NCBI RefSeq assembly: GCF_009301415.1
Contig: NZ_CP045072.1
Location: 159,501 to 223,500 of the forward strand
Direction of reading: 5' to 3'
Source: Paracoccus kondratievae
GTDB taxonomy: Bacteria; Pseudomonadota; Alphaproteobacteria; Rhodobacterales; Rhodobacteraceae
Length of the DNA: 64,000 nt
The notes under the pieces are model-generated. The model had not been told where the DNA came from. It saw only the letters and a list, made by a program, of their open reading frames with translations, and searched no databases. Position 1 is the stretch's first letter. Every line of letters starts with the position of its first letter. Shown in pieces: positions 36,528 to 48,224 of this stretch. The position numbers were made by a program, and so were the translations under genes.

Positions 36528-37586
36528 CTATTCCCATTCCAGTTCGGCATAGGCAGCGGCGGCATTGCGCGCCGTGGTGGCCTGAAAATCTGCCCAGCCC
36601 TCTGACACGGGTTTCATTCCGGTGACGATGGCTGGAATCGCCTGCGACAGGGGCAGGCCATCGGCGATCGCCTTGCGTGTTTCGTCACGCAGCGTCGTCA
36701 GGTAGTGGCGTTCGGGCGTCACGGCCTCGTCCCAACTTTCGGAAACCGGGCCATGGCCGGGGACGATCAGTGCCGGTTCGGGGTCTGGTTTTTGCCCGAT
36801 CCAGTTCAGCCAGCCCGCCAGCGTCCCGTCAAGCGAGGGGGTAAGGCCCAGAAACACCAGATCGCCAGTGAACAGCGTCGCGGTTTCCTCGTCCAGCACG
36901 GTCATGTCGCTGCCGGTATGGGCGGCTGGGACGGGCGCAAGATGTAACTGACGAGCCCCCAGGGAAAGGGTCTGCGGTGCCTCGACCTTCTGATCCACCG
37001 GGGCGATCTTGGTGCCTGCAAAGGCGGCCGCGCCGATCTGCCGCCCGGTCGAGGCCATCCAGCTTTCCGCGCGCCGCGCCACCGCCTCGGGCAGGCGGGC
37101 ATCGGCGATGATGGTGGCGCCAGCCTCGGAAAACACCTCGGCGCCCAGGATGTGATCGGGGTGCATATGGGTCAGGATCAGATGGCTGACCGGCTTGTCG
37201 GTGATCTGGCGGATCGCGGCGTAAAGCGCCTCACCCTCGGCCCGGCTGCCGCCTGCGTCGATCACCGCCACCGTATCGCCGACAATAAACGAAAGGTTGG
37301 CGATCCGCCCGCGGTTCTGGGGTGAAATCTGCGCCATCACGCCTTGATGCACATGAACCCCCGGCGCCACCTCTTGCACGGTCAGGGCAGGCAGTTCCGA
37401 GGCTTCGACGCAATGCGTCCCGCCGTTGGCCACCAGATCGCGGTGGCGGGCCAGCCAGTCGCGGGCAATGGGATCGGCCCGCGCCTCGCAATCCTCGCGC
37501 GTCTGGGCATCGCCAGCGGGCAGCAGGCGCGATTCGCAGGCGTCGGGGTGGGCGGCCAGACAGGCCGCAAGCACCAGATGAAACAT
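36528..37586 (-). CDS. Quinoprotein relay system zinc metallohydrolase (MBL fold)
   Basis: 352 residues, N-terminal secretion signal (MFHLVLAACLAAHP), a cysteine-rich lead region, and a metallo-beta-lactamase domain with THMHPDHILGAEVFSE (139-154), PAAHTGSDM and LFTGDLVFLG, then IVPGHGP. It matches the SoxH-related family found beside PQQ genes that was named quinoprotein relay system metallohydrolase (type 2 from the Cys-rich N-terminus). The substrate is unknown; the SoxYZ-like carrier at 40980-41750 may present it. It is divergent from pqqA with a shared 142-bp promoter region. Confidence 0.85.
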   Translation of the reverse strand: MFHLVLAACLAAHPDACESRLLPAGDAQTREDCEARADPIARDWLARHRDLVANGGTHCVEASELPALTVQEVAPGVHVHQGVMAQISPQNRGRIANLSFIVGDTVAVIDAGGSRAEGEALYAAIRQITDKPVSHLILTHMHPDHILGAEVFSEAGATIIADARLPEAVARRAESWMASTGRQIGAAAFAGTKIAPVDQKVEAPQTLSLGARQLHLAPVPAAHTGSDMTVLDEETATLFTGDLVFLGLTPSLDGTLAGWLNWIGQKPDPEPALIVPGHGPVSESWDEAVTPERHYLTTLRDETRKAIADGLPLSQAIPAIVTGMKPVSEGWADFQATTARNAAAAYAELEWE

Positions 37587-37654
37587 CCGCTTTCCTTTCG
37601 GACAGGCAGGCTAGCACAGCGTCGCGCCGTGTTCCATCTACGACCTTTGGCGCG

Positions 37655-37682
37655 TTGACTGATGGCGCAAGCAGCCTAGCAT
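37655..37682 (+). promoter_or_regulatory. Candidate pqqA promoter
   Basis: TTGACT (-35, 37655-37660), 16-bp spacer and TAGCAT (-10, 37677-37682), about 46 bp before pqqA. The -10 is a weak match. Confidence 0.4.
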
Positions 37683-37728
37683 CGGGCTGTCCGCATCTGC
37701 TGTGGACGCTTTGGAGGAGGAGACCCAT

Positions 37729-37821
37729 ATGGCCTGGACCAAACCCGCGCCGAAGGAAATCACCTGCGGCATGGAAATCAACATGTATGCCCCGGCCGAG
37801 GACGAGCCGGTCCTGTTCTGA
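37729..37821 (+). CDS. pqqA: Coenzyme PQQ precursor peptide
   Basis: A 30-residue ribosomal peptide whose Glu16 and Tyr20 are cross-linked and become the PQQ skeleton. The sequence starts MAWTKPAPKEITCGME and continues INMYAPAEDE, with the required E-x3-Y spacing (EINMY) at 16-20. GGAGGAGG lies about 10 bp upstream of the ATG, a strong ribosome-binding site as expected for this abundant peptide. First gene of pqqABCDE. Confidence 0.96.
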   Translation: MAWTKPAPKEITCGMEINMYAPAEDEPVLF

Positions 37822-37839
37822 CCCGCCGGTGACAACCCG

Positions 37840-37871
37840 GGCCCGGTTCCCACCTGATCGGGTGCCGGGCC
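37840..37871 (+). promoter_or_regulatory. Hairpin between pqqA and pqqB
   Basis: GGCCCGG (37840-37846) pairs with CCGGGCC (37865-37871), with an inner CACC/GGTG stem. No T-run follows. A hairpin here can raise the pqqA to pqqB-E transcript ratio; short pqqA transcripts are known in other bacteria. Confidence 0.5.
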
Positions 37872-37887
37872 TGCCGGAGCCTTTCCC

Positions 37888-38778
37888 ATGCGCATCGTGA
37901 TTCTCGGCACCGGCGCTGGCGGTGGCGTGCCGCAGTGGAACTGTGGCTGCCGCAACTGTGACGCCGCGCGTGCAGGGCGCATTCCCGCCATGAGCCAAAG
38001 CGGGATTGCCGTTTCCGCAAATGGCCGGGACTGGGCGTTGGTCAACGCCTCGCCCGACTTGCGCCAGCAATTGGCCGTGACGCCTGCCCTGCGGCCCGAG
38101 GGGTTGCGCGGCTCTCCGATTTGTTCGGTTCTGGTGACCAATGGTGATATCGACCATGTCGCCGGATTGCTGACCCTGCGCGAAGGGCAGGGGTTCGACC
38201 TGTTCGCCACGCCAGCTATCCATGCGGTGCTGGCGGCTAATCCGATACTGTCGGCGTTGAACCCGCAACTGGTTTTGCGGCGGGCGGTGACGCTTGACAC
38301 CCGCTTTGAACTTGCGCCCGGCCTTGGCGCGACGCTTTTTGCCGTGCCGGGCAAGGTGCCGCTTTACCTTGAGGGCGACGAAGTCCGAACCGATCTTGTC
38401 GGAGAACAGACCGTCGGGGTCGAGCTGACTGCCAAAGGGCGCCGCGTCTTTTACATCCCCGGCTGTGCCTCGGTGCCTGACTGGCTGCGGGCGCGGATCT
38501 CGGGGGCGGATGCGCTGCTGTTTGACGGCACCCTTTGGACCGATGACGAGATGCTGCGCGCGGGTCTTGGCGCCAAGACCGGGCGGCGGATGGGACATGT
38601 CCCGGTCTCGGGTCCCGGCGGCAGCCTTGAGGCGCTGCGCGACCTTGATCTGGGCGCGCGCATTTATGTGCATCTGAACAATTCCAACCCTCTGGTCGAT
38701 CCGGCCAGCCCCGAGCGCGCCGAGGCGCAGGCGGCAGGCTGGCAGGTTGGCCATGACGGCATGGAGATCGTGCCATGA
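37888..38778 (+). CDS. pqqB: PqqB
   Basis: 296 residues with a metallo-beta-lactamase-like fold, acting in PQQ synthesis; recent work in the field assigns it a hydroxylase role on the tyrosine-derived part. Typical PqqB sequence: MRIVILGTGAGGGVPQWNC at the start, NASPDLRQQL at about 52-61, VTNGDIDHVAGLLTLREGQ and IPGCASVPDWLRARI. HLNNSNPLVDPASPERAEAQ is near the C-terminus. The start follows pqqA by 66 bp with a hairpin between; the stop overlaps pqqC (ATGA). Confidence 0.95.
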   Translation: MRIVILGTGAGGGVPQWNCGCRNCDAARAGRIPAMSQSGIAVSANGRDWALVNASPDLRQQLAVTPALRPEGLRGSPICSVLVTNGDIDHVAGLLTLREGQGFDLFATPAIHAVLAANPILSALNPQLVLRRAVTLDTRFELAPGLGATLFAVPGKVPLYLEGDEVRTDLVGEQTVGVELTAKGRRVFYIPGCASVPDWLRARISGADALLFDGTLWTDDEMLRAGLGAKTGRRMGHVPVSGPGGSLEALRDLDLGARIYVHLNNSNPLVDPASPERAEAQAAGWQVGHDGMEIVP

Positions 38779-39554
38779 CATCAGCCGACCGCCACGCGCA
38801 GACCCGCGCCGGATTTCATGAGCGTCTGCGCCGCATCGGCGCCGAGCGTTACCATGACCGTCACCCGTTCCATAAACGCCTGCACGGCGGGCAATGCACG
38901 CCGGACGAGGTGCGGGCATGGGTGATCAACCGCTGGTACTATCAGTCGCGCATCCCGATGAAGGACGCCGCCTTCATGTCGCGCGTCGAGGACCCGCAGT
39001 TGCGCCGCATCTGGCGTCACCGGATCGAGGATCACGACGGTGATCCCGATCAGGGCGGCGGAATCCGGCGCTGGCTTGCGCTGGCCCATGCCGTCGGGCT
39101 TGATCCCGATTACGTCGCAAGCGGGGTGGGCGTGATGCCGGCAACGCGCTTTGCCGTTGATGCCTATGTCCGTTTCGTGCGCGACATGCCCTTGCTTGAT
39201 GCGGTGGCCGCCAGCCTGACCGAGATGTTTGCGCCCAGGATTCATGCCGAGCGTATCGAGGGTCTGCTGAGGCATTACGATTTCGCCAATGAGGCCAGTC
39301 TTGCCTATTTCCGTAACCGGCTGAGCGAGGCCCCGAAAGATGTCGAATTTGGCCTGACCTATGTGCTTGACCATGCTGACACGCGGGAAAAGCAGGACGC
39401 GGCGGCGGCGGCGCTGACCTTTAAGACCGACGTTCTGTGGGCCCAGCTTGACGCTTTGTGGCATGGCTATGTCGAAGGCCGTATTCCCCCGGGCGCATGG
39501 CAGCCGGGCGAGGGGATGTTGAACCCGGCGCTTGCTGCTGCTGCGGTTTCATGA
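38775..39554 (+). CDS. pqqC: Pyrroloquinoline-quinone synthase
   Basis: Cofactorless oxidase of 259 residues that performs the final ring closure and eight-electron oxidation giving PQQ. The characteristic segments are [20 protein letters not shown] near residues 25-45, [40 protein letters not shown] and [39 protein letters not shown] lies near 195-213. Overlaps pqqB and pqqD by 4 bp each. Confidence 0.96.
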
Positions 39555-39850
39555 GCGGCGCGCGCATCAGCGGCGCTGCGGTGCCCTATCTGCCGCGCGG
39601 GGTCAGGCTGCATGACGACCGGGTGCGCGGTTTGCGCGTGTTGCTGGCGCCCGAGCGGGTGATCCAGCTTGATCCGGTCGGCCACGCCATTCTGTCAGAG
39701 CTGGACGGCAAGCGCAGCCTTGCCGAGGTGATCCTGACGCTTTGTTCCCGCTATGACGCCCCGGCCGAACAGATCGAGGGCGATGTGCAGGAGTTTCTGC
39801 GTGATCTGGTCGACCGGCGTATGGTGTTTCTGGACGGAGGCGCGGCATGA
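39551..39850 (+). CDS. pqqD: PqqD peptide chaperone
   Basis: 99 residues. PqqD binds PqqA and presents it to the radical SAM enzyme PqqE. Typical features: [20 protein letters not shown], the [20 protein letters not shown] core and [16 protein letters not shown] at the end. The ATG at 39551 overlaps the pqqC stop; a longer open frame upstream belongs to antisense or overlapping reading. Separate from pqqC and pqqE, unlike some methylotrophs with fused pqqCD. Confidence 0.94.
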
Positions 39851-40983
39851 GAGGCGATTGCGTTCCCCGCGACATCGACGGCAACCCGGTCAGCGTCGGC
39901 CTGCCCATGGCGATGCTGGCCGAACTGACGCATCGCTGTCCGCTGGCCTGTCCCTATTGCTCGAACCCGGTCGAGCTGACGCGGGTCAGTGCCGAGCTCA
40001 GGGCCGCGGAATGGGCCGATGTGTTCCGGCAGGCCGCCGATCTGGGGGTGCTGCATGTGCATCTGTCGGGGGGTGAGCCCGCCTCGCGTCGTGACCTGAC
40101 CGAGATCGCCGCTTCGGCCCGGGATGCGGGGTTATATGTCAACCTTATCACATCGGGCATCGGCCTGACCGAGGCGCGGCTGCGTGAACTGGATGGTATT
40201 GTGGATCACGTCCAGCTGTCGCTGCAGGGGATCGACGCCGAGACGGCCGACTGGATCAGCGGCTATGGCGGCAGCTTTTCCCGCAAGATGCAGGTGGCCG
40301 AATGGGTGCGCGCGCTGGGCTTTCCGTTGACGCTGAATGCGGTGGTCCATCGTCAGAACCTCGACCGCCTGCCCGAGATGATCGACCTTGCCGAGCAGTT
40401 GGGCTGCCGCCGCATCGAGGTGGCGACCGTCCAGTTTCATGGCTGGGCCGACCTCAACCGCCGCCCGCTGATGCCGACGCAGGCGCAGGCAGTCCGTGCG
40501 CGCGAGGTGGTGGATGAGGCCCGCCGCCGTCTTTTGGGCCGTATGGTCATCGACTATGTGCCCGCCGACCATCTGGCGGCCTATCCGAAAAGCTGCATGG
40601 GCGGCTGGGGATCGACCGGGCTGAACGTGGCGCCCGATGGCACGGTCCTGCCCTGCCATGCCGCGCAGACCATCGCGGGGCTGACGTTTGAAAACGTGCG
40701 TGAGGTGCCGCTGGCGCGGATCTGGCATGACGGCGCGGCATTCAACGCGTTTCGCGGTACCGGCTGGATGCCCGAGCCCTGTGCCTCATGCGACCGGCGC
40801 GAGATCGACTTTGGCGGCTGCCGTTGTCAGGCCATGGCGTTGGCCAATGACCCGCGGGCGACCGATCCGGTCTGTTCACGCTCGTCCCTGAACGCCCGGC
40901 TGCGCGCCAACACCGAGGCCGAGGCGGCCAGCGATTCCACCGTTCTGGTCTATCGCCGCATGACGAGGGAGAAGCGATCATGA
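39847..40983 (+). CDS. pqqE: PqqA peptide cyclase (radical SAM/SPASM)
   Basis: 378 residues. Forms the C-C bond between Glu and Tyr of PqqA using S-adenosylmethionine. The radical SAM cluster motif CPLACPYC (Cys31, 35, 38) is intact, followed by [13 protein letters not shown]. The C-terminal SPASM domain carries auxiliary cluster cysteines: [20 protein letters not shown] with PCHAAQ, then [17 protein letters not shown] and PVCSRSS. Translationally coupled to pqqD and to the downstream carrier gene. No pqqF/G-type protease gene is in the window. Confidence 0.96.
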
Positions 40984-41750
40984 GACCGGCTGTTCTGCTG
41001 ACGGCGCTGATCCTTGCCTCGGGTGCTGCGGTGGCCGGGGTGACGAACCCGATGCAGCCCTCGCCCCTGTGGGATGACATGCGGCTTGCCGTCATCGGCA
41101 CCGAGGAAGAGCCGCCGACCGACCCGGCGATCTTTGACCTTGACGCGCCGCCGCGCGCCGACAACCCGGCGCTGGTGCCGGTGCGGATCACCCAGCCGCC
41201 CGGGGCCCCGGCGATCCGGTCCCTGGCGCTGGTGGTGGACGGCAACCCCGCCCCGGTCGCGGCCGAGTTTACCTTTGGCGAGGCGCTGATGCCCCTGGAT
41301 TTTGAGGTGCGGGTGCGGGTCGACAGCTATTCCGACCTGCGCGCCATCGCCACGCTTGCCGACGGGCGCAAGGTGATGGCGGGGCGCTATGTCAAGGCTT
41401 CGGGCGGTTGTGCGGCCCCGGCGGGCAAAAGCATGGACGAGGTGCGCGCCACCATGGGCGAGATGCGCTTTCGTCAGGCCGAGGACGCAGGCCGCCAGAT
41501 TGGCACGCTGATGATCCGGCATCCCAACTTTTCGGGCCTGCAGCGCGATCAGGTGACGCTTTTGACCATCCCGGCCGAGTTCATCCAGACGCTTGAGGTG
41601 AAACAGGGTGATGCCATGCTGTTCACCATGGATGCCGGGATTTCGATTTCCGAGGATCCGGTCTTTCGCTTTGCGCATACACCCGGGCAGGGGCCGGTCA
41701 CGGTTCATGCCGAGGATACCGAAGGCCGGGTCTGGGATCAGTCTTTCTGA
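40980..41750 (+). CDS. Quinoprotein dehydrogenase-associated SoxYZ-like carrier
   Basis: 256 residues with a signal peptide (LLTALILASGAAVAG, about 5-20). The first domain resembles SoxY, which in sulfur oxidation carries intermediates on a cysteine in a GGCGG motif; here the joint between the two domains reads KASGGCAAPAGKS with Cys144, the only cysteine in the protein. The second domain (about 150-256) resembles SoxZ. It overlaps pqqE by 4 bp and so is part of the pqq operon. By family knowledge it works with the metallohydrolase at 36528-37586. What it carries is not known. Confidence 0.88.
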   Translation: MRPAVLLTALILASGAAVAGVTNPMQPSPLWDDMRLAVIGTEEEPPTDPAIFDLDAPPRADNPALVPVRITQPPGAPAIRSLALVVDGNPAPVAAEFTFGEALMPLDFEVRVRVDSYSDLRAIATLADGRKVMAGRYVKASGGCAAPAGKSMDEVRATMGEMRFRQAEDAGRQIGTLMIRHPNFSGLQRDQVTLLTIPAEFIQTLEVKQGDAMLFTMDAGISISEDPVFRFAHTPGQGPVTVHAEDTEGRVWDQSF

Positions 41751-44097: not shown

Positions 44098-44285
44098 GGT
44101 CTTTTCCCCCATCGATACGGTCAAATTGCCATGGCCCGGAGTTTCGTCCAATACCACCGAAGTTGTAGACAGATGGTACCCGACGGTCCAACAGGCTTGC
44201 GCCAGCGGGCTGCGGTCTTAAGATGGCCGCATCAAGGCCGGCTTGCCAATCCCCGGCCCTCTGTCGTTTCTTTGGGAGGAGAACG

Positions 44286-44996
44286 ATGGCCTCAGCCGAA
44301 ATGCAGTCGCATGACCGTGCCGCAACGCCAAGGCTTACCGCTGACCGAGTCCGCGAAATCCTGATCGTGGACGATCACCCGCTGATGTGTGACGCCTTAG
44401 CCCTGACATTGAAGATCAGCTTTGGGCTAAGGAATGTGCGCACTGCGCGCAGCCTGGCTGCCGCGCAAGAGCAGATCCGCAACCAGGGCGCGCCGGATGC
44501 GGTGATTCTGGACCTGAACCTGCCGGATGCCAAGGGTGCCGAAGGGCTTGTCATCCTGCGGCGCCAGATCCCGGATGTGCCAATCACCATGATCTCGGCC
44601 GATCTGGAAAATGCGATGATCTCGACCGCCATGGCGGCAGGTGCACAGGGCTATATCAGCAAGTCCCTGGGCCGCGAGGCGCTGGTCGACAGCCTGCGCC
44701 GCATGTGGGAGGGTGAGCGGGTAACCCCCGACAGCTATCAGCCCGACCATGACGGAGAAGAGGACGCGGCCCGCGCCGAGCTGGCGCGCCGATTCGCAAC
44801 GCTGACGCCGCAGCAGATGAAAATCCTGCGGCTGATCTGTCAGGGCAAGGCGAACAAGGAAATCAGCTATGAGCTGTCCATCGCCGAGGCCACCGTCAAG
44901 ACACACATCACCGCGATCATGTCCAAGATCAACGCCCGCCGCCGCACTCAGGCGGTGCTTTTGGCCAATAGCGTCAGGCTGTTCGACCCGGCATGA
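44286..44996 (+). CDS. LuxR/NarL-type response regulator
   Basis: 236 residues. Receiver domain with ILIVDDHPLMCDALALTLK, phosphoacceptor Asp in AVILDLNLPDAKG and Lys in GYISKSLGREAL. The C-terminal LuxR-type helix-turn-helix is LTPQQMKILRLICQGKANKE followed by ISYELSIAEATVKTHITAIM. GGGAGGAGAACG just before the ATG at 44286 fixes the start. It overlaps the FIST gene (ATGA). Together with the downstream hybrid kinase it probably forms a phosphorelay governing the PQQ island; ErbR/AgmR-like regulators of PQQ-ethanol oxidation in Pseudomonas are the closest comparison I can make. Confidence 0.88.
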   Translation: MASAEMQSHDRAATPRLTADRVREILIVDDHPLMCDALALTLKISFGLRNVRTARSLAAAQEQIRNQGAPDAVILDLNLPDAKGAEGLVILRRQIPDVPITMISADLENAMISTAMAAGAQGYISKSLGREALVDSLRRMWEGERVTPDSYQPDHDGEEDAARAELARRFATLTPQQMKILRLICQGKANKEISYELSIAEATVKTHITAIMSKINARRRTQAVLLANSVRLFDPA

Positions 44997-46195
44997 GCTC
45001 TGCCTCGCCCGAACCATGGCCGGGCAGCCGGGGGTCCGGCGAAAACGAGGCCGCCGACCAGCAGGTCAGGCGGCCTCCGCCTGCGCCGATTGCCGTGTCT
45101 GAACCGGCCGACGGTCCTGATACCGCGCAGCGCATCGCCGCCGCCATGGCGCCGCTGAAACCGGCGCTGGTTCTGCTTTTCGGCATGCCCGCCGAGGGGC
45201 TGCCCGCCCTTGGCACGGCCTTGCGCGAAGCCATGGGCGAGGGGTGCCGTGTCGTCGGCTGCTCATCCGTGGGCGAGATCGGGCCACAGGGCTATTGCGC
45301 CAGGACGGTGACGGCGTTGGGTTTTCCTTCGGCCAGTTTCCGGGTCGGGGTCTGCCTTTTGCGCGATCAGGCGCTGGTGCCGGTGTCGGAATGGATGGCG
45401 ACGCTGCGCAGCTTTCACGCCGATTTCCGCCCTGATCTGCGCCGCTCCAGCTTTGGCGTCCTGCTGGCTGATGCGCTGGCCCGGCAAGAGGATGTGCTGA
45501 CCGCGACGCTTGATGCGGCGATCCCCGGCCTGCCTATCGTCGGAGGGTCCAGTGCCGAGGGCATGCGCTTTGAGCCGACCTGTCAGATGGTCGATGGCGT
45601 GGCCCATCCCGGTGCGGCGCTGTTCTTGCTGATCGAGACCGACCTTGTGGCGACCGAGGTTTCATTCCAGCACTTCAGCCCCACGGACCGGCGCGCGGTG
45701 GTGACCGCGGCTGACCGGCACAGCCGTGTCATCCAGCAATTGAACGACGAACCCGCGGCACAGGAATATGCCCGGCTGGCCGGTATCCCCGTCGAGGCCC
45801 TGACACCGACCGAATTCGCCCGCCACCCGCTGCTTCTCAAGACCGGGCGGCGCCATCACGTCCGTGCCATCCGTGCGGTTACGCCCGAAGGGGGGCTGCA
45901 ACTGCTGTCCGGGATCGAGGCCGGCCATATCCTGACCATCGGGCAGGCGATGGACATGACGCGCGGCTTTGCCGAGACGCTGGACGCGCTGCCCCGTCCG
46001 CCGCTGATGGTTCTGGGCTTTGACTGCGTGCTGCGGCGACTGGCGCTGGAGCGGGCGGGAATGGACAAGGAGATGTCCGAGCTTTTCGCCCGCTATCGCG
46101 TGGCTGGTTTCAACACCTATGGTGAGCAATACAGCGGCATGCATGTGAACCAGACCTTTGTCGGCATGGCGCTGATGCCACCGGCGCCGAGCTGA
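44993..46195 (+). CDS. FIST-domain sensory protein
   Basis: 400 residues with the FIST N domain (about 40-230, ALVLLFGMPAEGLPALGTAL, GCSSVGEIGPQGYCARTVTA, PIVGGSSAEGMRFEPTCQMV) and FIST C domain (about 250-395, ending VAGFNTYGEQYSGMHVNQTF). FIST domains are predicted small-ligand, perhaps amino-acid, sensors placed in signalling operons. It has no membrane segment or output domain, so it likely signals through the kinase coded 3 bp downstream. A variable, proline-rich N-terminal 40 residues precede the domain. Confidence 0.88.
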   Translation: MSSASPEPWPGSRGSGENEAADQQVRRPPPAPIAVSEPADGPDTAQRIAAAMAPLKPALVLLFGMPAEGLPALGTALREAMGEGCRVVGCSSVGEIGPQGYCARTVTALGFPSASFRVGVCLLRDQALVPVSEWMATLRSFHADFRPDLRRSSFGVLLADALARQEDVLTATLDAAIPGLPIVGGSSAEGMRFEPTCQMVDGVAHPGAALFLLIETDLVATEVSFQHFSPTDRRAVVTAADRHSRVIQQLNDEPAAQEYARLAGIPVEALTPTEFARHPLLLKTGRRHHVRAIRAVTPEGGLQLLSGIEAGHILTIGQAMDMTRGFAETLDALPRPPLMVLGFDCVLRRLALERAGMDKEMSELFARYRVAGFNTYGEQYSGMHVNQTFVGMALMPPAPS

Positions 46196-46198
46196 CAG

Positions 46199-47524
46199 AT
46201 GTTTCTGCGCGACGACGACAGCCCGCACCGGCGGGTCGAAAAGCTGACACGCATCGCCGATGTGCTGGTCGAACGCATCGACCGGCTTGAGGAAAGCCGC
46301 GGCTCGGCATGGTCGATGTTTCAGGCCGCCGTGGCGCTGGAACAAGAGGTTCAGGCCCGTACCCGAGAGCTTGAGCAGGCGCTGGCCGACCTGTCCGAGC
46401 GCAACCGTGAACTGGCCGTCGCCCGCGCTGCCGCCGAAGAGGCGAACCGCTCAAAGACCCGCTTTCTGCGCGCGGCAAGCCATGATCTGTTGCAGCCGCT
46501 TTCGGCGGCCAAGCTGTTTCTGTCGGCGCTCAAGGACACCTCGCTGGATCCGTTGCAGCGCGAACTGACCGACCGCCTGTCCGGTGCCTTTGAATCGGTC
46601 GAAGAGCTGATGCACGCGGTGCTGGATATCTCACGCCTCGACAGTCAGCGCATCGAGTTCCAGCGCAAGCCCGTCGATCTGGGTGAGCTGTTTCGCCGCC
46701 TTGCCGTCGAATATGCGCCGATGGCCGAAGCCAAAGGCCTGCGGCTAAGCTTTGCGCCGACCTCGGCGGTGGTGGAAAGCGATCCGACCTTTCTGCGGCG
46801 GATTGCGCAGAACCTCATTTCGAATGCGATAAAATACACCGAGCACGGTGGCGTTCTGGTAGGTGTTCGCAAACGTGGTGAGCGCGCCTGGCTGGAAACC
46901 TATGACACCGGTATCGGCATTGCCGCCGCAGACCGTGCCCGCATCTTTGATGAGTTTCAGCGCCTGGGGCGCGAAAACAGCGCGCCGGGGATGGGGCTGG
47001 GTCTGTCTATCGTGCGCCGTGCCTGTGCCAAGCTTGGCCACCCGATCGCAATGGACAGCGAACCTGGGCGCGGCACCGTGTTCCGTGTCAGCCTGCCGCT
47101 GATCTTGGCCGGATGCGAGCCGACGCGGCCCGAGCGGTTTGATACGGCGCCGTTGCTGCGCGGCCTTGTTGCGCTGGTGGTCGAGAATGACGAGGCGATG
47201 CGCCGCGCCCTGCAACTGGTGCTCAAGGACCAGCTGGGCATGGTGCCGCGCGTCGCAGGCGGCATTGCCGAGGCGCTGGCGCAGATGGGTGATGAGCCCC
47301 CGGATGTGGTGATTGCTGACTACAATCTCGACAATGGTGACACCGGGCTGGATGCGATCATGGCGCTGCGCGAGGCGGCGGGTCGCGCGCTGCCGGCCAT
47401 CGTCGTTTCGGCCCGGCGTGCCTCGGAACTCAGCCGGGCCTGCGGCCAGATGGGCGTGCCGGTGCTGGAAAAACCGATCCGCCCCGAGGATCTGCTGACC
47501 ATGCTGCAAAAGCTGCTGACCTAA
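46199..47524 (+). CDS. Cytoplasmic hybrid histidine kinase/response regulator
   Basis: 441 residues without transmembrane helices. A long coiled coil (about 44-88, VALEQEVQARTRELEQALAD) leads into the dimerisation domain with His95 in RAASHDLLQPLSAAKLF. The ATPase domain has QNLISNAIKYTEHGG, TGIGIA and GMGLGLSIVRR. A receiver domain (about 322-441) has the phosphoacceptor Asp374 in VVIADYNLDNGDTGL. The SHDLLQPL H-box is that of the NahK/ErcS' kinase group, whose Pseudomonas members belong to the PQQ-ethanol regulon; this comparison is from memory. Input probably comes from the FIST protein. Confidence 0.9.
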   Translation: MFLRDDDSPHRRVEKLTRIADVLVERIDRLEESRGSAWSMFQAAVALEQEVQARTRELEQALADLSERNRELAVARAAAEEANRSKTRFLRAASHDLLQPLSAAKLFLSALKDTSLDPLQRELTDRLSGAFESVEELMHAVLDISRLDSQRIEFQRKPVDLGELFRRLAVEYAPMAEAKGLRLSFAPTSAVVESDPTFLRRIAQNLISNAIKYTEHGGVLVGVRKRGERAWLETYDTGIGIAAADRARIFDEFQRLGRENSAPGMGLGLSIVRRACAKLGHPIAMDSEPGRGTVFRVSLPLILAGCEPTRPERFDTAPLLRGLVALVVENDEAMRRALQLVLKDQLGMVPRVAGGIAEALAQMGDEPPDVVIADYNLDNGDTGLDAIMALREAAGRALPAIVVSARRASELSRACGQMGVPVLEKPIRPEDLLTMLQKLLT

Positions 47525-47609: not shown

Positions 47610-48224
47610 ATGAGATTATGGCCGGGCCTTGCGCTGATCGGACTACTGGCCGTGCCGCTATGGGCGGGCGAGGCGGGTGACCTTGTCTTTGCCGACCGCG
47701 GCCCCTGGGACCTGTCGCAGGGAGGGCTGACCTGGGTGCTGCGCCAGACCGGGCCCGAGGCAGGGGATTTTAAACCCTTGGGCGAAGGGACGGTTACCTT
47801 GCAGGCGGTCACCGACCCTGCTGATGGCAAACCGGTGCTGGAACTGGCCGAAAAGACCGATCGCATCACGCGCCGCATCGGTCCTTTCCCTGTCTCGGGT
47901 GGCGATCCGGCGCTGGTGTTCTTTCTGGAAAACACTTCGCGCGATATGGCGATGCTGACCGGTGGCAGCCCCTTTTACATTCGCAACCGGCTCAAGGACG
48001 CGCTGTTTCGCGGCGGAGAAGTCCGGCAAGAGGGCGATGCGACCGTGGCGGTTTTTGCCCCTTTTCGCGGTGACCAGAACAGTGGGCGGATGCACGGCTT
48101 TGACAGGTTGGAGCTAAGCTTTACCTTTGGTGACCCCAAGCAGCCGATCCGGCGTATGCTGGCGCAGACTGGCCCCCTTGAAGGCGGCCTGCCAGCCTAT
48201 CGCAGCGAAATGGTGTTGAAATGA
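47610..48224 (+). CDS. Hypothetical secreted protein in the PQQ island
   Basis: 204 residues with a signal peptide (RLWPGLALIGLLAVPLWAGE). The rest is a soluble beta-rich domain with no cysteine and no recognised motif: DLVFADRGPWDLSQGGLTWV, LVFFLENTSRDMAMLTGGSP and FDRLELSFTFGDPKQPIRRM. It seems to be a conserved protein of quinoprotein clusters rather than a random open frame, judging from codon use, the good ribosome-binding site (GGGGAG) and its 4-bp overlap with the next gene. Function not known. Confidence 0.7.
   Translation: MRLWPGLALIGLLAVPLWAGEAGDLVFADRGPWDLSQGGLTWVLRQTGPEAGDFKPLGEGTVTLQAVTDPADGKPVLELAEKTDRITRRIGPFPVSGGDPALVFFLENTSRDMAMLTGGSPFYIRNRLKDALFRGGEVRQEGDATVAVFAPFRGDQNSGRMHGFDRLELSFTFGDPKQPIRRMLAQTGPLEGGLPAYRSEMVLK

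Follow-up and report, generated by a model that had tools for sequence, protein, structure and literature searches.

A SoxYZ-type carrier and a zinc hydrolase around the pqq genes of Paracoccus kondratievae as a predicted accessory pair of lanthanide-type alcohol dehydrogenases

The genome of Paracoccus kondratievae (4.23 Mb, 3 contigs) contains a locus in which a fused SoxY-SoxZ carrier and a zinc metallohydrolase enclose the genes for pyrroloquinoline quinone (PQQ), with no quinoprotein beside them, which raises the question of which enzyme the pair serves. The locus lies in a stretch of 64,000 nucleotides, here called the window (C1:159501-223500, C1 being the contig). From left to right it comprises the hydrolase (minus strand), pqqA-pqqB-pqqC-pqqD-pqqE and the carrier (plus strand), and an SsuABC-like ABC transporter (minus strand), followed by a LuxR response regulator, a FIST protein, a hybrid histidine kinase and a family-less protein of 204 residues. 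Judged from sequences and gene sets, the carrier and the hydrolase very probably act together as accessory proteins of periplasmic PQQ alcohol dehydrogenases, most of them of the lanthanide type. The features of the pair are as follows.

40980..41750, plus strand: SoxY-SoxZ fused thiol carrier, 256 residues, with a putative signal peptide seen by eye; TIGR04557, Pfam and PDB/fold matches
36528..37586, minus strand: SoxH-like zinc metallohydrolase (relay hydrolase 2), 352 residues; TIGR04559, 367.6 bits
37384..37586, minus strand: four-cysteine domain at the N terminus of the hydrolase (C9, C17, C33, C59), from alignment; no signal peptide is recognisable there

The carrier and the hydrolase belong to named families

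Both proteins exceed the curated cut-offs of their families, the carrier with 246.4 bits against TIGR04557 (cut-off 140) and the hydrolase with 367.6 bits against TIGR04559 (cut-off 280), so that their kind is already known. The coordinates, reading frames, motifs and family assignments of the first-pass annotation were confirmed on re-examination. In the carrier, SoxY and SoxZ are fused in one frame (Pfam SoxY 44-144, SoxZ 176-255). The sole cysteine, Cys144, lies within a GGC motif (GGCAAP), is the final residue of the Pfam SoxY match and, in a sequence alignment to PDB, falls on the last SoxY cysteine matched in 2ox5, which bears out the proposal that it occupies the position where SoxY binds its cargo. 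The solved structures closest in sequence are SoxY (2ox5, 2oxg, 4uwq) and SoxZ (4uwq, 1v8h), and the closest relative among the matches listed is from Paracoccus thiocyanatus (88% identity). The GGC motif is invariant in 30/30 fused carriers of the class sample described below, paralogues and one partial carrier included, and in all 48 rows of a second carrier alignment (A3); His181-Pro182 and Gly186 of the SoxZ half are likewise invariant in both. The AlphaFold2 model of the carrier has a predicted local distance difference test score (pLDDT) of 89.9 overall, falling to 61 in the cysteine block 141-150 between flanks at 94 and 86, and the Cys144 loop is thus probably flexible. Foldseek places SoxY chains at the top for this model, SoxZ chains next and antibody chains lower.

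The hydrolase carries THMHPDH at residues 139-145. Its seven predicted zinc ligands, which we take to be H140, H142, D144, H145, H223, D242 and H278, are all intact and each is kept in 93-94 of 94 aligned rows, in agreement with the intact zinc site noted at first pass. The N-terminal cysteines C9, C17, C33 and C59 are each present in 78-82 of the 94 rows, and all four are invariant in 15/15 rows that had been pre-selected for an N-terminal C..C pattern. Further matches to this domain within the genome have E values of 0.12 and 0.25 only. A four-cysteine start without an apparent signal peptide is found in hydrolases of Rhodobacterales and of some Rhizobiales, and a plausible ribosome site precedes the ATG of the window hydrolase. 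Signal-like starts, some of them twin-arginine-like, are seen by eye in certain relatives elsewhere and in the second hydrolase of this genome.

Association of the carrier with lanthanide-type dehydrogenases

The class sample comprises 289 genomes that are related and in part incomplete; the Fisher tests below ignore both kinship and incompleteness, which limits the conclusion drawn from them. A fused carrier above cut-off occurs in 24/289 genomes. This number omits G197 and G087, in which a stop separates soxY from soxZ although the match exceeds the cut-off, and G229, with a partial carrier below cut-off at a contig edge, was added for the counts of dehydrogenases, YeeE, SoxB and hydrolase scores (25 genomes). 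PqqC accompanies the carrier in 19/24 genomes, against 29/265 of the others (p 1e-12). Every genome in which TIGR04559 exceeds its cut-off also encodes a fused carrier (18/18). The hydrolase is on a different contig from the carrier in G118, G241, G008 and G142; of these, the first two have the carrier far from the ends of its contig and the last two have it at an end. The CXXCW protein exceeds its cut-off in 8 genomes, all among the 24 with a carrier.

A PQQ dehydrogenase above cut-off was identified in 64 genomes, 21 of them with the carrier (G229 included). For motif typing, reading frames were chosen by score, and an Asp two residues past the catalytic Asp was taken by us as the mark of a lanthanide enzyme. 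Dehydrogenases of this Asp type are present in 21/21 carrier genomes and in 18/43 others (p 1.6e-6), and the strict XoxF-like motif in 17/21 against 4/43; genomes with only Thr-type dehydrogenases make up 25 of the 43 without a carrier and none (0/21) of those with one. SoxB reaches its cut-off in 3/25 carrier genomes and not in P. kondratievae. Collectively, these sequence counts argue strongly for linking the pair with XoxF-type dehydrogenases and not with the Sox pathway.

Dehydrogenases and a second pair in the same genome

The first-pass annotation had described the locus as lacking any quinoprotein and placed the dehydrogenase elsewhere. The lack holds for the locus and not for the genome, which encodes two TIGR03075 dehydrogenases above cut-off, both outside the locus as the annotation supposed. 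A XoxF (motif HDEWDYDGVNE) lies at 43 kb on C1, about 150 kb from the carrier locus, together with its cytochrome, XoxJ and a CXXCW rhodanese-like protein; genes near it resemble glutathione-linked formaldehyde oxidation, as judged by eye. The other dehydrogenase, at 430 kb on C2, is of the Ser type and probably a calcium enzyme. With it are a PedF cytochrome, a separate CXXCW protein and a second carrier-hydrolase pair (L008:7822-9545), formed by a TIGR04557 carrier with 157.7 bits and a TIGR04558 hydrolase. The genome thus holds two each of dehydrogenases, CXXCW proteins, carriers and relay hydrolases, and one of the two CXXCW proteins has a Pfam rhodanese match. A comparable regulator set (LuxR, FIST, kinase) stands beside both sets, at 44223-47524 and L008:12510-16741; on C2 the regulator and the FIST protein were assigned by model and the kinase by eye.

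The two kinds of pair remain matched in the class sample when carriers are sorted by which of this genome's two carriers they match better and hydrolases by the higher of the TIGR04558 and TIGR04559 scores. Fourteen carriers of the first kind go with TIGR04559, and seven of the second kind with a hydrolase nearest TIGR04558, four of these above its cut-off (p 8.6e-6). G000, G075 and G286 hold both kinds of pair together. At L171 (G191), a single-sequence search favours the window hydrolase and the model favours TIGR04558.

Gene order in related loci

The remaining genes of the locus are as follows.

37729..37821, plus strand: pqqA precursor peptide, a short reading frame
37888..38778, plus strand: pqqB; TIGR02108, 395 bits
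38775..39554, plus strand: pqqC; TIGR02111, 375.5 bits
39551..39850, plus strand: pqqD; TIGR03859, 80.7 bits; start inferred inside the open reading frame 39458-39850
39847..40983, plus strand: pqqE; TIGR02109, 523.5 bits
41738-44157, minus strand: SsuABC-like ABC transporter, adjoining the carrier here and in few related loci only
44223..47524, plus strand: LuxR response regulator, FIST protein and hybrid histidine kinase; Pfam
47610..48224, plus strand: conserved family-less protein of 204 residues, with relatives in 69/80 loci and a putative signal peptide seen by eye

The carrier ATG and the pqqE stop overlap by 4 bp. pqqA was assigned from a short frame, a Glu/Tyr core being the mark of this peptide.

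Gene order was compared in the 80 best of at least 580 loci; they were found with patterns from close carriers and are therefore a biased sample, and they include related genomes, so that the counts are not independent. The hydrolase is divergent from and close to the carrier in 79/80 loci, the exception, L221, showing none. The pqq genes lie between the two in 19/23 Paracoccus loci, against 0/57 loci of other genera (p 8e-15), where the pair is divergent without intervening pqq genes in 56/57. When both flanks exceed 9 kb, XoxF is found within 28/34 non-Paracoccus loci against 0/17 Paracoccus loci, and the 204-residue protein within 32/34 and 13/17, respectively. The lack of a quinoprotein at the Paracoccus locus is thus largely a matter of gene order, since xoxF is often near the pair in other genera. 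Furthermore, 50 genomes with a carrier locus were searched (46 without XoxF in the examined stretch, of which 23 are Paracoccus and 23 belong to other genera, and 4 with XoxF), and 48 of them have a dehydrogenase above cut-off; the motif is of the Asp type in 30/30 genomes in which it was read, namely those given as loci. The two without such a match, G311 and G324, are both metagenome assemblies. In G311, a Paracoccus assembly with carrier and pqq genes, the nearest dehydrogenase matches are short separate pieces (G311:C30:129739-130685).

Two candidate partners were set aside. The ABC transporter was rejected as a core partner because an SsuABC-like binding protein is present in 7/69 loci with a long right flank. 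For a thioredoxin-like partner, a motif search gave plausible candidates in L160 and L164, some 6 kb away from the carrier, a distant thioredoxin in Paracoccus loci and chance-like matches in other frames; such a partner was not taken as core. In other genera, a further SoxYZ-type fusion lies between beta-propeller and CXXCW genes, with GQGAC replacing GGC at L208:1677-2543.

Possible chemistry of the pair and alternatives

A cycle of loading and hydrolysis at Cys144 with a one-carbon (C1) cargo is our tentative proposal, held with less than even confidence. Cys144 would be loaded and its load then hydrolysed as in a Sox cycle, with the PQQ dehydrogenase in the place of SoxXA/SoxCD and the hydrolase in that of SoxB. 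The most likely cargo would be formaldehyde, bound on Cys144 as S-hydroxymethyl, oxidised to S-formyl and released as formate by the hydrolase. Such a cycle would close with dehydrogenase, carrier and hydrolase alone. Seven genomes (G008, G059, G118, G142, G232, G241 and G276) have a XoxF-like enzyme, the carrier and the hydrolase and no CXXCW match, so the minimal set may be these three proteins. A more specific version has XoxF oxidise not only free methanol but also a C1 unit bound to a protein thiol; formaldehyde on Cys144 would become thioformate and then, through the zinc enzyme, formate. This version is quite improbable on present evidence. If true, it would be the equivalent of the glutathione pathway in the periplasm, protein-bound and assembled from Sox parts.

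Several observations weigh against the dehydrogenase assignment or its proposed chemistry. In the class sample, an Asp-type dehydrogenase occurs in 18 genomes that have no carrier. Conversely, no dehydrogenase reaches the cut-off in G130, although carrier, hydrolase and pqqC are all present, nor in the carrier genomes G155, G181 and G191. In P. kondratievae itself the second carrier adjoins the Ser-type enzyme. The distance correlation of carrier and XoxF is weak after correction for other genes (0.16, permutation p 0.057; 0.31 with fewer genes). No signal peptide of the hydrolase is visible by eye, so its compartment is uncertain, a point of weight because the two proteins have to come into contact. 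The CXXCW partner, being rhodanese-like, suggests sulfur. In favour of the cycle, some proteins with the fold of the hydrolase are thioester hydrolases, glyoxalase II for example; the window hydrolase matches TIGR03413 (glyoxalase II) with 29.1 bits only. Against it, after the relay models the best NCBIfam match of the hydrolase is a B1 metallo-beta-lactamase (46.9 bits), and the solved structures most closely related to it are 8d2z and a chlorothalonil dehalogenase, matches that hold nothing specific to thioesters. Finally, transposon insertions in P. putida produced only minimal phenotypes on alcohols with rare earths absent (PMC12997753), and the product of XoxF1 in M. extorquens, which has homologues of the carrier and hydrolase genes (PMC12997753), is formaldehyde and not formate (PMC6414531).

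The first-pass annotation inferred a covalent intermediate of alcohol or aldehyde oxidation, and a sulfur adduct or an upkeep role would fit nearly as well. The carrier might instead guard PQQ against sulfite, thiosulfate and sulfide, nucleophiles to whose attack the cofactor would be most vulnerable when rendered electrophilic by a lanthanide; the carrier would take the sulfur group, the hydrolase would free it, and the CXXCW protein would take the leftover sulfane sulfur. This is possible, though on balance rather unlikely. It would give the lanthanide link a chemical reason, accounting for that link well and for the rhodanese-like partner better than the C1 cycle does. Carrier, hydrolase and CXXCW protein all resemble families of sulfur metabolism and are mutually correlated (partial r 0.29-0.33, 24 loci). 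The same method gives 0.55 to the unlikely pair of the 204-residue protein and FlhA (24-25 loci), however, so these correlations count little either way. Published support includes the naming of PQQ protection and the inhibition of Hyphomicrobium growth on methanol by thiosulfate (PMC12997753), XoxF enzymes cited as oxidising thiosulfate (PMC6548844) and SoxH cited as a substitute for SoxB in Sulfurimonas (PMC11237559), although the last paper argues for a carbon rather than a sulfur role. Fifteen of the 25 carrier genomes lack a CXXCW match and 3/25 have SoxB above cut-off, which speaks against sulfur. The link to a YeeE-type transporter, prompted by PMC11582611, was rejected because no match lies near the carrier in 25 genomes, and this too tells against a sulfur guard. 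Between the two kinds of cargo, a C1 thio-adduct is slightly favoured over sulfur.

A role in the maturation or upkeep of the dehydrogenase, either disulfide formation between its adjacent cysteines or the insertion of lanthanide or PQQ, appears unlikely, although it has already been proposed (PMC12997753) and XoxJ and the CXXCW protein adjoin XoxF. The adjacent-cysteine pair is present in 102/109 dehydrogenases, Thr-type included, and in all 25 genomes with only Thr-type enzymes, all of them carrier-free; the pair thus does not call for the carrier, and its disulfide was rejected as the reason for the carrier because it does not discriminate. A zinc hydrolase also has no obvious part in disulfide formation. 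That the protein is a true Sox carrier in thiosulfate oxidation is very improbable. It is homologous to SoxY and SoxZ, but scores below the cut-offs of both (TIGR04488, 53.5 against 125 bits; TIGR04490, 51.9 against 76 bits) and lacks the C-terminal GGCGG arm of true SoxY, GGCAAP lying inside the chain. A search of the genome for SoxZ gave the two fused carriers and no separate SoxZ, and none of its SoxB matches reaches the cut-off (best 128.3 against 550 bits). A Sox function was rejected on these grounds.

Comparison with known systems

The window pair belongs to named families. It resembles the TIGR04557 and TIGR04559 families in exceeding their cut-offs and in having the kinds of partner described for them, and differs in the pqq genes placed between its members, a Paracoccus-only feature among the 80 loci, and in the four-cysteine domain of the hydrolase. 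It shares with true SoxYZ, which works with SoxB, the fold and the cysteine position of the carrier, and differs in being fused, with an internal cysteine (GGCAAP) instead of one on a C-terminal arm. The fold of SoxB differs from that of the hydrolase. NosP is a FIST protein. The ped cluster of Pseudomonas putida (PP_2666, PP_2677, PP_2678) likewise holds a SoxYZ fusion, a SoxH-like hydrolase, a rhodanese-like protein, a LuxR regulator and a histidine kinase, and a nitric oxide-sensing NosP homologue is tabulated beside the kinase and the regulator (PMC12997753). In that cluster the PQQ dehydrogenases are in the same cluster, whereas the window has one pair with pqq genes and regulators and the dehydrogenases lie elsewhere. 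The 2026 review of the ped cluster includes the pair and offers disulfide formation or PQQ protection as its role (PMC12997753). The lucinid-symbiont fusions SoxYZ-S2 and SoxYZ-S4 lie near a PQQ dehydrogenase or xoxF and soxH, and a role in carbon metabolism has been suggested for them (PMC11237559); they come from other bacteria and are likened to the window carrier by description. A comparable ensemble exists in Hyphomicrobium (PMC11582611), Methylophaga has two soxYZ fusions (PMC6548844), and the pair is within a locus of a methanol-growing Pseudomonas (PMC12875217). Term searches in the main texts of an M. extorquens lanthanide screen and of a Sinorhizobium XoxF paper gave no mention of the carrier or hydrolase genes. 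In the literature searched, which covered few subscription papers, no biochemical study of the carrier or of a relay hydrolase was found.

The 204-residue protein and a phage-borne carrier

Relatives of the 204-residue protein, which is probably secreted to judge from its start, lie near the carrier in 69/80 loci and share an invariant GxxxYxxNR core. Neither the window protein nor its profile gave an NCBIfam, Pfam or PDB match, and among 34 relatives there were two single-member Pfam matches (E 0.015 and 0.028). Its AlphaFold2 model has a pLDDT of 90.5. Foldseek returned nothing for it at E <= 0.001, and VIA-align placed LolA-like chains first at values too low to trust (Z 6.8, root-mean-square deviation 5.3, 130 residues aligned).

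Relatives of the carrier were also identified on nine IMG/VR contigs, six reaching the TIGR04557 cut-off (four with 241-265 bits and two with 141-144) and three slightly below it (131-137 bits); the phages collection yielded no carrier. Phage genes were examined in one of the nine, L260, which holds a carrier of 265 bits (L260:7929-8714) together with genes for a terminase, a UvsX-like recombinase, a single-strand binding protein and a helicase. The terminase, recombinase and helicase genes indicate that this lone carrier gene is phage-borne, and phage 'soxYZ' genes may in part be of the quinoprotein-linked kind.

Implications

Rare-earth methanol dehydrogenases are widespread, and the pair described here goes with Asp-type dehydrogenases, without SoxB above cut-off in 22/25 genomes and without a CXXCW match in 15/25. 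A small-genome lifestyle does not cost bacteria the carrier, as the 24 carrier genomes of the class sample include 10 assemblies below 2 Mb, several of them incomplete. In conclusion, the role of the pair is narrowed from a named-family annotation to one that can now be tested under lanthanide-replete conditions, unlike those of the published P. putida screen.

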